DNA of 37,515 bases, taken from a virus. The translations under genes and the position numbers were made by a program. The notes beneath the pieces were generated by a model, which was not told the DNA's origin, searched no databases, and worked only from the letters and a program-made list of their open reading frames with translations. Each line of letters opens with the position of its first letter. Within the stretch, counting starts at the first letter, position 1. The DNA lies in the IMG/VR virus record IMGVR_UViG_3300048597_000488, positions 1-37,515 of that record. The stretch is one strand, 5' to 3'. Shown piece by piece: positions 5,929 through 20,917 of this stretch.

Positions 5929-6780
5929 GTGCCAAAAACAGAATTGTTGCATAAAGCTACAAGATTCATAGAAAGAAACAAGTCCTTGTTTTACTTGAGC
6001 GACATCACGTTGAAGTGGGACGAAGGCATAGGAAAAGATACAGACTATTACCAAGGAAGAGATTTTGACCTGACCGCCCATAATTCATTCTCTATAAAGT
6101 ATGGGAGGCATGAATCCACTATTTACTTGGGCAAGCATCGGTTTGGAGACGATGGGCTGGGAACGTTTAAGCGATGCTTGTGTGGGGCTATTGTGGAGGA
6201 CGAAAAAGAGCACTATAAGCATCAAAGAGAATGTGTGTGTTGCATCGAAAAAATAAAAGAGATTGACACTGATGTGTTCGAGGATCTTATTGAATATTAC
6301 AGATCAAGAAAGAGGGTTGTAAATCCAGAAATTTGGGATAAATACCAGATCGGCAAATGTCGCTCATTGACCCCAATAACTGGAGGTAAAGGCAAGGATG
6401 GCAGCCAGATGTCTGATTTCTTTCTGCTTAGTAGCGTATTGGTTTCGGATCCAAACGATTTTCCCGAATGCCGTGGTGTTTACCTTGTTAGGTTTTTAAA
6501 CAACAATAAATGGATTCCACTTTACTGTGGCAAAAGTGAAAATATGCATGAAAGATGGAAGACTCATCACAGAATGCCTGAGATAGAACTTCTTCAAAAA
6601 ATAGGTGTTCAGTTAGAGTTTCGATATATTGCGGAAACCCCTTTGGTCAAGCTAAATGGAACCATTGATGAGCTTGAACTGCAACTTATCAACTCATTTA
6701 AGCCCAAGCTGAATAACACCCTCACATTAAAGTCTTCTCGATTTCCCATCCGCCAAGCAAAATCCAGTGATCAGCAATAG
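5929..6780 (+). CDS. GIY-YIG family endonuclease (module 1, gene 2)
   Basis: A 283-residue protein starting at GTG with AGAAGG nine bases upstream. The N-terminal half is unrecognised but has a possible zinc site (C83, C85, H95/H98, C102, C104, C105). The C-terminal GIY-YIG nuclease domain spans about 180-265: GVY at 183-185, YCG at 199-201, catalytic Arg in HERW (R209), acidic residue in DELE (E250) and Asn in KPKLN (N262). GIY-YIG enzymes of this type nick or cut DNA and often drive homing of phage elements. The nuclease domain is clearly related to that of the gene at 15742-16350 (HHRMxEI...L...G...YxxET). The gene has no internal HIP1 site and is A+T-richer than its neighbours, which suggests recent arrival. 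Confidence 0.8.
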   Translation: MPKTELLHKATRFIERNKSLFYLSDITLKWDEGIGKDTDYYQGRDFDLTAHNSFSIKYGRHESTIYLGKHRFGDDGLGTFKRCLCGAIVEDEKEHYKHQRECVCCIEKIKEIDTDVFEDLIEYYRSRKRVVNPEIWDKYQIGKCRSLTPITGGKGKDGSQMSDFFLLSSVLVSDPNDFPECRGVYLVRFLNNNKWIPLYCGKSENMHERWKTHHRMPEIELLQKIGVQLEFRYIAETPLVKLNGTIDELELQLINSFKPKLNNTLTLKSSRFPIRQAKSSDQQ

Positions 6781-6799
6781 GCGATCGCCAGCAATTAAA

Positions 6800-6893
6800 C
6801 TAAACAGTTAGAATAGTTCCAGGTCAGTGACCCATATCCGTAGGCTGTGCCAAAGGAACTGTAAAACCCTTTAAGCCCACGGAGGGCAAAGAT
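6800..6893 (+). promoter_or_regulatory. Late promoter and structured leader of the major tail gene
   Basis: TAGAAT at 6809-6814 is followed by GGTC-AGT-GACC (6822-6832), AGGC-TGT-GCC (6842-6851) and the ribosome-site hairpin GCCC-ACGGA-GGGC (6875-6887) before the ATG at 6894. The similarity to 1570-1663 extends over about 100 bases, including AATTAAAxTAAAC upstream of the -10. The gap between the first two mini-hairpins differs (10 versus 13 bases), so the pieces rather than their spacing are kept. Confidence 0.65.
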
Positions 6894-7313
6894 ATGACGA
6901 CCTATCGAGGCGAAGGTGGTTTCGTTCGATTTAATAAAGTGGCTCCGGCTTCCGGGGTGGCCCAGGTAAGATCCTGGTCGATGAATTTGGAAAAGACTGA
7001 GGTTGAAACTACAGACCTTGGTTCCGGCTATCGGAAGTATATGGGTAGCTTAGTTGGTGCATCTGGTACCGCTGAAATTTTTTATGACGCTGGTGCAACC
7101 ACTTCCACCAAAGACTTTTTAGATGCAGTCAACGATACGGAAGACGATGCCGATTCGGTCTTTGAGCTTTACACGGACACCGACCGGAAAATTTCATTCT
7201 CTGGGATGATCACCGGGATGGATATTTCCGCCACTCCTGGGGAGGCCATTATGGGATCCTGCTCCTTCCGGTGCAATGGCACTATCACCACTAGCGGATT
7301 GTACAGCGCATAA
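6894..7313 (+). CDS. Major tail (tube) protein
   Basis: A 139-residue protein of the siphovirus tail-tube family. Typical features are the start YRGEGGFVRFNKVA, SWSMNLEKTEVETTDLG, a central loop YRKYMGSLVGASGTAEIFYD, and the end FSGMITGMDISATPGEAIMGSCSFRCNG, which matches the beta-sandwich with the late 'G....p....eg....s..f...G' pattern of tube proteins. It is followed by the G/GT chaperone pair and the tape measure gene, as in lambda-type tails. It has its own repeated late promoter. In the expected order it would directly follow the tail terminator; module 1 separates them. Confidence 0.85.
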   Translation: MTTYRGEGGFVRFNKVAPASGVAQVRSWSMNLEKTEVETTDLGSGYRKYMGSLVGASGTAEIFYDAGATTSTKDFLDAVNDTEDDADSVFELYTDTDRKISFSGMITGMDISATPGEAIMGSCSFRCNGTITTSGLYSA

Positions 7314-7315
7314 CC

Positions 7316-7711
7316 ATGGCAGCATCAAAAAGACTGATTGACCGCCTGAAAGAGGCTGAAGGCTGGAACGTTAAACAACGTTATCCATACGAAATCAAAG
7401 ACGCTAACGGGGAGGTCATAGAAACCGTTTTCTTTTATCCCCGTACCCGTGCCGTCCGTAAAAAAGTGCAGTCCCTAAAGCCCAAGGATGCGGCTGAATA
7501 CACCACCCAAATGTTGATTCAATCGGCAGAATTGGAGGACGGCTCCAAGGCGTTTGAGTTGGGGGATTTTGACGTTCTCCAACGGGAAATCAGTGAAGCT
7601 CAATTGGATGAAATTGAGCTATTCATGATCAATGTTGGTGCCACCGCCACCGTTGAAGATGAAAAAAAAGACTCAGATCCGACCTCGACGCCCGCTTTGA
7701 ATACCAACTAG
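7316..7711 (+). CDS. Tail assembly chaperone G
   Basis: A 131-residue protein just downstream of the tube gene and upstream of the tape measure gene, the position of lambda gpG. It is helical, with a charged start (SKRLIDRLKEAEGW) and TRAVRKKVQSLKPKD. The final residues after VEDEKK come from the zero-frame reading past a slip site and end at TAG 7709-7711. Its partner GT is made by -1 frameshifting at 7663-7669. These chaperones coat the tape measure protein during tail assembly and do not remain in the virion. Confidence 0.8.
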   Translation: MAASKRLIDRLKEAEGWNVKQRYPYEIKDANGEVIETVFFYPRTRAVRKKVQSLKPKDAAEYTTQMLIQSAELEDGSKAFELGDFDVLQREISEAQLDEIELFMINVGATATVEDEKKDSDPTSTPALNTN

Positions 7712-7851
7712 CCAAAGACCTCGGCATGACCGTTGAGCAACTCAACAATAATCTCACCCAGGACGAGTTTACCGGCTGGGTAGCTTTTTATGAGTTGGCC
7801 TACGAGGACCAAGAAAAAATGATCGCCGATTCCAAGGCACGACGGAGGTAA
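7316..7851 (+). CDS. Tail assembly chaperone GT (-1 frameshift fusion)
   Basis: After 118 residues of G, ribosomes slipping by -1 at A_AAA_AAA enter an open frame that continues RLRSDLDARFEYQLAKDL and ends DSKARRR at TAA 7849-7851, giving 178 residues. The T part has the helix pattern of lambda gpT-like extensions (FEYQLAKDLGMTVEQL, then EFTGWVAFYELAYED). No start codon in a good context precedes this frame, and frameshifting at this point is a conserved property of lambda-type tail operons. The tape measure gene starts three bases after its stop. Confidence 0.8.
7663..7669 (+). promoter_or_regulatory. Programmed -1 frameshift slip site (G to GT)
   Basis: Eight consecutive A residues (7662-7669) give A_AAA_AAA in the zero frame (GAA AAA AAA GAC). 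Tandem slippage by one base back joins the G frame to the open T frame. Position and direction match the known lambda G/GT arrangement. Confidence 0.8.
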
Positions 7852-7854
7852 CCC

Positions 7855-10800
7855 ATGGCAACCATATTCACCGTTGGCGTTGAGGTTCAGGCTTCTGCGG
7901 CGCAAGCGGCGATCGCCAGGTTAGAGAGGGCATTTGATGGCTTTGCCAGGTCTAGCCAGTCGGCCACCAATGCCACTCAAAGATTTGACCAGGAATTGGA
8001 CGATGCCACCAAGCAAATTGACCGATTTGCCGACGAAATGGAGGTGGCTAACCGTCGGCAACAGGAATTTGAACGGGGCAACCTAGCTGTTGCCGTGGCA
8101 TTGGGCGGGGTGGCCATTAAAGCCAAGCAATATATCAGCGCCATCATTGGTGTTGGGCAAGCTACCCAACAGGCGATCGCCGCCAACTCCACCTTGGCGA
8201 AGGATGCCAAGGCAGTAGATAAGGCGTTTCGGCAACTGACCAAGGAATTAAATTACACCACCAACTCCCTGGAATTGAACCAGGCGGCCTATGACGTATT
8301 CTCCGCAGGGGTAACGGAAACTACTGACGTGTTAAACGTCATGAGGGCTGGGGTAGCCGGTGCCAAGGGCGGATTCTCTGACCTGGCCACGGTGACCGAT
8401 GCGGTGACCACCATCATGAACTCATTCGGCAAGAAATCATCGGAAGCACAGAAGATTGTGGACATGATGATTACCACCCAGAATGACGGGAAGATTGTAG
8501 CGGCGCAATATGGGCAACAAATTGGGGTAGTAGCATCGGCGGCGGCAACGGCTGGGGTCAAGTTAGAAGAATTGAATGCGGCAGTAGCATTGGCCACCGT
8601 GTCCGGGGTGCAGGTTAGCTCCACCTTCTCTGGACTACGACAGGCGATCAGTTCCGTCGCTTCCCCCTCAGAACAGGCCAAGAAAATGGCCAAAGAATTG
8701 GGGATTGAATTTAGCCAGCAGGCGATCAAGTCCAAGGGGTTTGCCCAGGTTTTGACGGACGTGGCAACGGCTACTAGGGGCAATGCAGAGCAGATCGCCA
8801 AGTTATTCGATTCTGTGGAAGCTAGGGCAGTAATTGACCCGATATTGAGCAATCTTGACCGTTATAACCAAATGCTGGCAAACCAGTCCCAGGTGGCGGG
8901 GACGGCAGAAGCGGCGCAGCAAAAACTGGCTGGTGGATTACAGCAATCACAGGCGGCATTTGCCAATGTCCGCAAGGAAGTCGAAATCGACATCTTCCGT
9001 ACCATTGAGCCGGCAGTGACAGCGGTTACCAATGCCGCCACCGCCATGGCCAAGTCCTTTGTGGAGTTGCCTGGACCCATCCAAAAAGTGGCGATCGGTA
9101 TTGCTGCCCTCGGCGGTGCATTGGTGGTAACCACAGCGGCTATGGCGGCATTCCAAGCCATGGGTATTACCACAGCGGCAGTGATGGGTGGATTGTCTGC
9201 GGCTATGGGCATCATCCTAAGCCCCATTGGGCTGGTGGTGATCGCCGTTGGAGGGTTGTATTTAGCCTTCCAGCAGATGATGGATAGCTCGGAAGAGTTA
9301 AGGAAGGTAATGACCGAGTCCATGGACAAAATGGGCAAGGCAATTGAGAAGATATTTAACTCCATTGGGCGAGTGGTGGATGTGCTAACCGGCAAATACG
9401 CCGAGCATGAAACCAAATCCAAGAGCATTTTCACTAAGATGGGTGACTTCTTTGCCCGCTATGTCAGGGACACAGTGGCAGGGTGGGAGATGATCGCCAA
9501 TGCGGTAGAAAGAACGGCGATCGCCATGGAGAGACGGGCTGGGGTGGGCACCATGAAGGGACTAAGCATGACGGAGGTGAGCAACAAAATCCAGGCGGGG
9601 AATGTGGGGAGTGGGTTGGCCACCATGCTCCAGTTGACCATGGAGAGTCGCAAGTTAGAGGAAGAAATCAAAAAGATGGAAGCCGAGGCTAAGCGCTTCC
9701 GTAGCAGTGGCATGGGCATCCCCAATGTGCAACTGGAGGAAGAAATTAAGAAGCGCAAGGAAGACCTGGCAGAAATGCGGGCTGCTTACGATCGCCTTAA
9801 TGCTTCCATTGATAGCTACAACAAAAAAATCAATGAACCAAATACAACCCCTGGGCAAAGCACTCCCGGTGCGGCACCTCCTCCTCCTGGTGCGGCAGGG
9901 GAAGATGAAGACGCCAGGAGGGAACGTCTAAAGCGAGAAAAAGAATTAGCTGAGGAACAACTGCGGCAAGAAAAGGCGATCGCCGATCGCCGGAGGCAGG
10001 AATTTGAAGAAAGACAGAGACGGGAGCGGGATGGATTCCAGGACCGGCAACGGTTTGAGGGGCTGACCTTTGACCAACGGAATAACTATGAAACCCGTTT
10101 GTTTGACCTGCAAACAAGGCATCAGGAAATCTTGCGGGAACAACGCCTGGAGACGGAAAGCGAAATCGCCAACGCTGTTATCAATAACCAGAGGAAGATT
10201 GAGGACTTCCAGCGGCAAATGGAACGGCGGCGCATGGAACGCCAATTCCAACAGGAGCAGATGGCGAGGGATATTCAAGCATTGGCCCAACAGCGGATGT
10301 TTGAACAAGCCCAAGCTAATGCCGCCAATGTGTTCAACCAAGGGCAAATGGTTTCTGCCGGTGCGGCCATGCAATCTGGTGGTGGTGCCCAGGCTGCTTT
10401 GTCCGGCATTCTTGCCTACGTTGGAAGCACTGGACGTGGATCAGGTCCCCACCTAGACCTGCGGGGCTTCACTGGCGGCGATCGCCGGAATCGCATTCCC
10501 CCACAGCGACTAAAAGAGATAGCGGAGATGTTCACGGCTGGGGGTAAGCCAATTTCCGCCTATCCCATCACCTCTGGCTATGGCCCACGACGGGCACCTG
10601 TCCCTGGGGCATCCACCTTCCACCCTGGCTTTGATTACGGTATTCCAGAGGGGACACCGTTGCGGTTCAATGGGCAGGCAGTCAATATGAAGCAACGCCC
10701 CAATACAACGGGGGGGGGTGGAAACGTCCTAGAAATTACGTTGGCCACTGGGGAGATTGTCCAACTTCTACACCTACAGAAGTTTGGTGATGCCCTGGTT

Positions 10801-15741: not shown

Positions 15742-16350
15742 TCAAACTAACGACGGTAGGTAGCCAATTGGATCAATCTCCGCTTCTATGTTGCGGATAC
15801 TGCCATTCATTATTGGATAGAAATTTTGAATAAAGTCACGTTCGGTTTTGTGTAACATCCTGAATTTCATCATTTCAGTTTCCGATAAGTACACCAAATC
15901 GACTTCAAACCCACAATCTAGCAAAAACTTTATTTCATCCATTCTGTGGTGTTGTTTAAGCCTCTGGCTTAAGTTTGATGTCATGCCAACGTAAAGCAGT
16001 ACAGTATGGTCGACCACTAGATTCCCGTCTGTCCCTATCCATGTCGCATCACGATATAACCAAAAAGAATATAGTGACTGAGTGTTTGGAATATTGAAGC
16101 CATCAAATGCTTCATCTGCGGATACCCTCTGCGCCGTTTTTAGGTAATGGACAAAGCTATCTACTATCGTTTTGTCTATTGCGAAATCCAATATGCTATT
16201 CGCCGTAGTAAAAAGCCAATCTGAATCAAGATATTCTCCCGAAATAAAATTATAAGCATCACGGCAAAATCGGGGAGAATTTTCGGACTTTTTCTTGATT
16301 AGGTCTGCATAACATGCGTTTATTGCGTACCAAAAATAAGATGGCAACAT
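15742..16350 (-). CDS. GIY-YIG family endonuclease (module 2, gene 2)
   Basis: A 202-residue protein. The N-terminal half is helical and unrecognised. The GIY-YIG domain spans about 90-185: SLYSF at 92-96 in place of GIY, YVG at 120-122, catalytic-type Arg R130 (QRLKQHH), Glu E170 (KTERDF) and Asn N182. The stretch HHRMDEI...L...G...YLSET parallels that of the module 1 nuclease, so the two are relatives with different N-terminal parts. The degenerate first motif may lower activity. No HIP1 site lies inside. The conserved 38-nt element lies 30 bases upstream of the start. Confidence 0.7.
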   Translation of the reverse strand: MLPSYFWYAINACYADLIKKKSENSPRFCRDAYNFISGEYLDSDWLFTTANSILDFAIDKTIVDSFVHYLKTAQRVSADEAFDGFNIPNTQSLYSFWLYRDATWIGTDGNLVVDHTVLLYVGMTSNLSQRLKQHHRMDEIKFLLDCGFEVDLVYLSETEMMKFRMLHKTERDFIQNFYPIMNGSIRNIEAEIDPIGYLPSLV

Positions 16351-17180: not shown

Positions 17181-17218
17181 TCCCCCTGTTCGTAGCAGGG
17201 GGCATCTTTTTAATTATA
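17181..17218 (-). promoter_or_regulatory. Promoter -10 and 5' hairpin of module 2
   Basis: On the - strand TATAAT (17218-17213) is followed by TAAAAAGATG and a perfect stem CCCCCTG (17202-17196) with CAGGGGG (17188-17182) around a 7-nt loop. RNA starting about seven bases after the -10 would begin with this hairpin. No good -35 is seen. On the + strand the same hairpin is followed by CATCTTTTT, so it could also stop antisense transcription. Confidence 0.6.
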
Positions 17219-17254
17219 AGGCGATCATCTTTGTTGGCATCCAGGCGATCGCCG

Positions 17255-20222: not shown

Positions 20223-20584
20223 TTAGTTTTTCCGGTTGAACTGTCTGCCACAGTCCTTGCATAACCATTGTTGCTTGCCGTATTTGGTTATGCCATTTTT
20301 GACTGTGTTTATGCCACCGCAGTCCGGGCAGACTTTTTTGCCATGTCATCTAGCCATTTTTGATAACGGATGGCACTGTCGGCGATCGCCGCTTCCAGGT
20401 TGGCACCATAGCCATGACAAGCATTTTTGCCAGAGAATAGCCATGGCAAGTCACATTTGCCGTCATAAGTGATGGAAATATTGCTATTGTCTGCGGGGTA
20501 GGTTTGGGCGGTTAATTCGTTGTAATGAAATTCAACAGAAGGAAAAGATTGTTCAATCTCTTGGCGGAATTGTTTCGGTGTCAT
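20223..20584 (-). CDS. Frameshift product: small protein fused to a zinc ribbon
   Basis: Slippage by -1 at A_AAA_AAG (20339-20333) after 84 residues gives a 120-residue protein. The added 36 residues read VCPDCGGINTVKNGITKYGK and continue to QFNRKN: two CxxC pairs around a GKQQWLC core. This is the zinc ribbon of IS1 InsA-type and related transposases. The ribbon frame has no ATG, GTG or TTG before the first CxxC and a stop (TGA) just before the slip site, so it can be read only by frameshifting. GACTG (20324-20320), eight bases after the slip site, can pair with CAGTC (20305-20301) as a stimulating stem. The terminator follows directly. The first part is of unknown function. Confidence 0.7.
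20309..20584 (-). CDS. Hypothetical protein (91 aa), zero-frame product
   Basis: The zero-frame reading gives 91 residues, MTPKQFRQEIEQSFPSVEF to SARTAVA. ATG 20584 has GAGG eight to ten bases upstream; an earlier ATG at 20620 lacks one. The middle (ITYDGKCDLPWLFSGKNACHGYGANLEAAIADSA) suggests a small alpha/beta domain. The last seven residues after the slip site are low in structure, as for a frameshift by-product. The leader (20585-20690) contains ACAACCAACCACA and a 7-bp hairpin. Function unknown. Confidence 0.6.
   Translation of the reverse strand: MTPKQFRQEIEQSFPSVEFHYNELTAQTYPADNSNISITYDGKCDLPWLFSGKNACHGYGANLEAAIADSAIRYQKWLDDMAKKSARTAVA
20333..20339 (-). promoter_or_regulatory. Canonical -1 frameshift heptamer A_AAA_AAG
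   Basis: In the zero frame the - strand reads GCA AAA AAG TCT. A_AAA_AAG is the most efficient known slip heptamer in bacteria (as in Escherichia coli dnaX). A 5-bp stem, GACTG with CAGTC, begins eight bases downstream, a normal distance for a stimulator. Confidence 0.7.
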
Positions 20585-20655
20585 TTTGATTTCCTCAATG
20601 TGGTTGGTTGTGCCACCCATTAGGCGGGGTGGCGATCGCCGTTATAATTTCCTTG

Positions 20656-20686
20656 TCCCCGCTTTTCCGTGGTTGGTTGGCGGGGA
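20656..20686 (-). promoter_or_regulatory. Leader hairpin with ACCAACCAC loop
   Basis: TCCCCGC and GCGGGGA form a perfect 7-bp stem around a 17-nt loop that contains CAACCAACCAC on the - strand. On the - strand no T-run follows, while on the + strand TTTT follows, so it may end antisense transcription or shape the leader of the zinc-ribbon gene. Confidence 0.45.
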
Positions 20687-20692
20687 TTTTGA

Positions 20693-20917
20693 TTAGTAGT
20701 TCAACAAGGGGTGGTCAGAAAGCATCTTTAGGGTAATCTGGCGACGAATCTCATTCACTGCCGCCTCCAAGACTTCTCTTTTGCTGTTCAGAGGGGGAAC
20801 ATTCCACCCCTGATCCCGTTTTAGGCGTAACTTTGCTTGTAGTAGACGGTAGGGGGTTTTAATGCCACCGTCTTTGATTTTTTGTTGGAACTTGGCTTTT
20901 AACTCTTGGTTAGACAT
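20693..20917 (-). CDS. Hypothetical protein (74 aa), first gene of the cassette
   Basis: A 74-residue basic helical protein (ELKAKFQQKIKDGGIKTPYRLLQAKLRLKRDQGW, ending SDHPLLNY). ATG 20917 is preceded by ACAACCAACCACAAACACC and no Shine-Dalgarno. The frame stays open for 54 codons upstream but that part lacks a start with a ribosome site and reads as non-coding. No family is recognised; small basic proteins in the first early position often bind DNA or host proteins, which is only a guess here. Confidence 0.5.
   Translation of the reverse strand: MSNQELKAKFQQKIKDGGIKTPYRLLQAKLRLKRDQGWNVPPLNSKREVLEAAVNEIRRQITLKMLSDHPLLNY

Follow-up and report, generated by a model that had tools for sequence, protein, structure and literature searches.

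A slip-prone heptamer predicted to add a zinc ribbon by -1 frameshifting to unrelated small phage proteins

From the comparison of related phage contigs, we consider it highly probable that a small phage gene is decoded in two ways, and that its 3' end is a heptamer/ribbon module acquired, in the -1 frame, by at least four unrelated N-terminal parts (N-parts). The anatomy of the locus, its recurrence, the selection acting on the ribbon and the absence of any other start in three of four loci were directly observed, whereas the occurrence of slipping, its rate and the use of both products are inferred. According to this model, most ribosomes would read the zero frame and synthesize the N-part followed by an eight-residue tail. 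At A_AAA_AAG, replaced by G_GGA_AAG in two relatives, a fraction of the ribosomes would slip one base back, so that the N-part is extended by a C-terminal zinc ribbon of the IS1/IS1595 type. It may be inferred that the two products are made in a set ratio. The heptamer, the ribbon and, in most loci, a terminator would move together as a single 3' module, attached in the -1 frame to the ORF that closes a small array with leaders between its members.

The DNA analyzed here, referred to as the window, is the whole of an IMG/VR virus record of 37,515 bases. The cyanobacterial HIP1 motif GCGATCGC occurs 41 times in this record, whose major head protein is 55% identical to the counterpart in cyanophage KBS-S-2A. 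On these two grounds, and on sequence likeness only, the window was taken as a putative cyanophage of the KBS-S-2A/S-H1 kind. The zero-frame ORF (20309..20584, minus strand, 91 codons) likely starts at ATG 20584, preceded by TTGAGGAAATCAAA, and ends at TAA 20311-20309. Its product consists of an 84-residue N-part (MTPKQFRQ...) and the tail KSARTAVA. The slip heptamer A_AAA_AAG is located at 20339-20333 (minus strand) and has counterparts at the same place in three other distinct loci. After TGA 20348-20346, the -1 frame reads CAT GGC AAA AAA GTC TGC and so on, leading to HGKKVCPDCGGINTVKNGITKYGKQQWLCKDCGRQFNRKN, and no ATG, GTG or TTG is present from this stop to the first Cys. The zinc ribbon encoded in this frame (VCPDCGGINTVKNGITKYGKQQWLCKDCGRQFNRKN, 20223..20333, minus strand) contains four Cys and ends at TAA 20225-20223. 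The predicted shifted product would comprise 120 residues, of which 84 precede the ribbon, with LDDMAKKVCPDCGG... as predicted junction peptide. An intrinsic terminator-like hairpin (20214-20194, minus strand), followed by a T run, lies 8 nt past the -1 stop. An earlier note on this DNA had described the heptamer within GCA AAA AAG, the -1 ribbon frame with its stop at 20223, the sizes of 84 and 120 residues, the upstream stop with no start codon before the first CxxC, and a terminator after the -1 stop. All these features were re-found and their coordinates and sizes proved correct.

The same geometry was observed in four other IMG/VR contigs (L007, L017, L021 and L022). As L021 and L022 are identical at the ribbon locus, they were counted once; the contigs represent three further distinct loci and, with the window, only four distinct loci are known. 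L007, with a ribbon 78% identical to that of the window, was found through a search with the neighboring dCTP deaminase, L017 through a short conserved DNA string, and L021 and L022 through an alignment search. In all four loci, the two ORFs overlap and a canonical heptamer in the correct phase links them, precisely nine bases ahead of the first Cys codon; it is A_AAA_AAG in the window and L021 and G_GGA_AAG in L007 and L017. The zero-frame stop is invariably found 19 nt past the first base of this codon, and the upstream ORF extends in the zero frame over at least 68 codons in each case. Conservation of the terminator-like hairpin is clear in L017 and L021 and weaker in L007. The N-parts, of 84, 68, 137 and 98 residues, are mutually unrelated by BLAST, and no N-part homologues were found in phages. 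The window N-part gave neither a family match nor a relative in viral contigs, and the L017 N-part matched nothing in viral contigs except L017 itself; in plasmids, its matches were confined to ribbons/transposases, apart from one weak match. The earlier note had proposed to follow the heptamer and the ribbon frame through homologues of the N-part: the N-part turned out to lack homologues in the sequences searched and to differ fully at each locus, but the heptamer and the ribbon frame always occurred together. To judge from these four loci, the conserved unit is the heptamer with the ribbon and the terminator, and not the N-part. The zero-frame tails (KSARTAVA, KPVQPAEV, KSAQTVTA and KSVQTATA) were also considered as possible degrons, but this idea was dropped, because reading the Cys codons one base on already accounts for the Ala/Val content of the tails.

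In the window, L017 and L021, the ribbon frame is preceded by a stop 3-5 codons before the first Cys, after which no ATG, GTG or TTG occurs, and near-cognate starts were also absent on reading these three sequences. The ribbon frame of L007 has an ATG (6255), 9 codons ahead of the Cys. As far as the sequences can tell, translation of the ribbon from a start codon without a shift is not possible in three of the four loci. Between the four loci, the ribbon shows a dN of 0.14-0.21 against a dS of 1.2-1.6 (Nei-Gojobori, on 37 codons and therefore rough), and its variable columns are distributed as 13/10/25 over codon positions 1/2/3. These values, together with the codon-position pattern, indicate that the ribbon frame is translated. 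A lack of conservation of the -1 frame, which the earlier note had made part of a refuting case, is contradicted by this strong purifying selection.

At the same dS of 1.2-1.6, the heptamer is kept as AAAAAAG or GGGAAAG across the relatives. Homology between the loci starts with the AAAG of the heptamer, and the preceding three bases fall in the unrelated upstream ORFs. These bases are AAA, GGG, GGG and AAA, and each time they complete X_XXY_YYZ, although a one-base triplet at this place would be expected by chance in about 1/16 per locus, by our inference. As no position is shared between AAA and GGG, the pattern would point to selection for slipperiness rather than to descent. Likewise, the recurrence of the same tail, joined by the -1 arrangement behind four unrelated proteins, marks this arrangement, on comparative grounds, as selected and not as an error.

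An in-frame ribbon fusion without slip site, which the earlier note had named as a refuting case, was not found in IMG/VR. In DNA pattern scans of viral contigs, the heptamer accompanied every ribbon of this subfamily that was found, and relaxing the ribbon pattern brought up nothing but chance matches or unrelated ribbons having their own starts. Among about 75 bacterial contigs with more distant ribbons, none had a heptamer at -9, and almost every one had either an ATG shortly ahead of CPxC or a long upstream part in the same frame. When four of the phage genomes were scanned mechanically for a heptamer with an upstream ORF and a long -1 extension, only 1-3 hits per genome were returned, the ribbon locus being among them in each. 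This low number and the shared geometry of the three further loci, with their unrelated N-parts, indicate that the arrangement exceeds chance. The ribbon module had no match among 386 and 243 sampled cyanobacterial genomes, and a covariance model search of six cyanobacterial genomes was empty, though without a positive control.

Usual stimulators of frameshifting are a stem 5-9 nt downstream or a Shine-Dalgarno sequence 10-14 nt upstream. The GACTG/CAGTC stem put forward in the earlier note is present at its place in the window (20324-20320/20305-20301), where it forms a weak local stem of 5 bp beginning 8 nt past the heptamer, but each of L007, L017 and L021 has a change in one of its arms. 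Being intact in none of these three, it was rejected as a stimulator. A longer candidate RNA stem-loop within the ribbon (20250..20306, minus strand) pairs the same CAGTC with a downstream GACTG (ACAGUC, 20306-20301, with GACUGU, 20255-20250) and has an 11-bp upper helix (20295-20285/20267-20257). It is kept in 91% of pair cells. Compared with synonymous recoding, its pairs are in excess in the window (16 vs 11.2, p 0.001) and in L017 (17 vs 13.5, p 0.0055), whereas in L007 and L021 the excess does not reach significance (p 0.15 for each). The longer stem may be considered better supported than the local one; however, the evidence is only moderate because the structure was derived from these same sequences. 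Besides, it begins 26 nt past the heptamer, beyond the usual distance for a stimulator. No conserved upstream Shine-Dalgarno stimulator was found in the four loci, a Shine-Dalgarno-like site being present in L007 only.

Several other explanations of the -1 relation were weighed. Since a run of six A is a typical error site, the window taken alone could contain a sequencing or assembly indel within an in-frame fusion gene. However, the same -1 relation recurs in three further loci, each distinct and with an N-part of its own, and two of them, with GGGAAAG, lack a homopolymer of six; the relatives exclude this reading, to which we give practically no credit. The A6 of the window and L021 could also promote transcriptional slippage, leading to mRNAs of mixed length that are each read normally. 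This is very unlikely: L007 and L017 have only three A within GGGAAAG, which makes an unlikely slippage site for the polymerase, and both heptamers are strong ribosomal -1 sites. Translation of the ribbon alone, through re-initiation or an unusual start, would yield a free peptide of 37-45 residues. It cannot be excluded for L007, given the ATG at 6255, but no start is available in the window, L017 or L021, and we hold this explanation to be extremely improbable. Instead, tRNA slipping at A_AAA_AAG or G_GGA_AAG, both of which are reported to be highly shift-prone in E. coli (PMC5009743), appears as the simplest route to the ribbon.

It remains conceivable, if rather unlikely, that the shift is mainly regulatory, for example with the ribbon product binding the stem-loop of its own mRNA and the fusion having no other task. 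The excess of stem-loop pairs over synonymous recoding in two of four loci would be in line with such a role. However, L007 and L021 show no significant excess, no binding data are available, and the ribbon is retained alongside unrelated N-parts.

The earlier assignment of the ribbon to the IS1 InsA-like pattern was supported by a match to NCBIfam NF050000 (IS1/IS1595 N-terminal zinc-binding domain; E 1.3e-14, 54.5 bits), the scores obtained, 54.5 and 52.1, being above the cut-off of 28 bits. The corresponding Pfam models scored below their cut-offs on the ribbon, and the IS1 equivalog NF033558 gave 30.7 vs a cut-off of 100. No transposase catalytic domain is present, as the -1 frame stops eight residues past the last Cys and is followed by the terminator. 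The ribbon is expected to bind nucleic acid, both zinc and nucleic-acid binding being inferred. A PDB sequence search provided no useful relative, its top matches being repeat and zinc-finger proteins aligned through short stretches. A second, different ribbon protein was noticed in three of these phages (L007 17550-17467, minus strand, L110; L111; L112); it has a longer open frame (CAHCGSIRTVKNGLYNGKQRIRCRDCGK in L007) and is without the slip-site arrangement in L007.

In each phage, several small ORFs set apart by a common leader form a run, which ends with the ribbon gene. In the window, this leader (20593..20640, minus strand) is composed of GGCGATCGCC, a hairpin of 7 bp with GCCACCC/GGGTGGC arms enclosing CGCCTAAT, and then AACCAACCAC and a ribosome-binding site. 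Across the phages, it comprises a HIP1 site, a hairpin, AACCAACCAC and a ribosome-binding site, and precedes the ribbon gene in all four loci as well as other small ORFs of the same arrays. It also recurs near 20678, 20934 and 20150 (minus strand) of the window and in G001-G004, the recurrent hairpins having a CGCYTAA loop and arms that differ yet still pair, with AACCAACCAC near the ribosome-binding site. Such a recurrent leader may promote the exchange of cassettes or control translation. Another repeated intergenic hairpin, AATCAAAATCCCCGCCAACCAACCACGGAAAAGCGGGGA, was found at 20656-20696 (minus strand) of the window and at 16100-16140 and 17202-17242 of G002, with about 97% identity between the two phages.

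The window ribbon gene adjoins small ORFs and a dCTP deaminase gene located downstream. In the relatives, for which neighboring genes were named from reading of the sequences, the ribbon gene is followed by a small ORF and a tyrosine-integrase-like gene in L007, by one small ORF and a portal-like gene in L017, and by a DNA clamp gene in L021. The placement in an early phage region suggested in the earlier note suits the window, but in the relatives the neighbors are different. These differing downstream neighbors and the common leader fit, by inference, a moron-like unit in which the N-part is exchangeable between leader and ribbon. In L007 (about 6550-8000), the integrase-like gene following the ribbon unit also has a possible tRNA-like stretch before it; together they suggest that L007 is temperate.

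Programmed frameshifting in tailed phages is chiefly known from tail chaperone genes, and elsewhere in bacteria mostly from mobile elements. As in lambda gpG/gpGT and other tail-assembly chaperones, the putative shift uses a canonical heptamer located late in a small phage ORF and adds a C-terminal domain to part of the product, and the lambda-type G_GGA_AAG is present here too. In contrast, the appended domain is a zinc ribbon, the N-part varies between phages, and no tail role is evident. Nor is the gene beside a tape measure gene, so that the G/GT criterion of lying immediately upstream of it is not met. The mechanical scan separately revealed a probable tail-assembly-chaperone -1 frameshift in the window (7316-7851, plus strand), with a slip run at about 7663 (A run before AAG) and a -1 extension KKRLRSDLDARFEYQ...LTQDEFTGWVAFYELAYEDQEKM, adjoining a probable tape measure gene of 1529 codons downstream; it provides a case of a known kind within the window itself. 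IS1 InsA/InsB' and IS3-family OrfAB share the A6-type slip site and the fusion of two ORFs, and the ribbon is of the InsA/IS1595 N-terminal type; however, it is here C-terminal, after the shift, and without transposase catalytic domain. The A_AAA_AAG heptamer and the two products from one gene recall dnaX (tau/gamma), except that the shift here gives a longer product with an additional domain, and that no conserved upstream Shine-Dalgarno stimulator is present.

The use of -1 frameshifting, also by phages (lambda G/GT), and IS1-type ribbons are already known, whereas the literature searched, mainly open-access, gave no case of a C-terminal ribbon that frameshifting attaches to a series of unrelated non-tail phage proteins. 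More tentatively, the module could be a portable 3' translational adaptor, through which the last-encoded protein of an array would gain a low-dose nucleic-acid-binding form and N-parts would be tried both free and tethered to DNA or RNA; this remains a possibility that we do not favor strongly. Annotation misses such products, as a ribbon without start codon would be omitted, and the heptamer followed by the ribbon offers a simple sequence signature for finding further cases. A frameshift-coupled domain behind unrelated proteins would represent domain combination at the level of translation.
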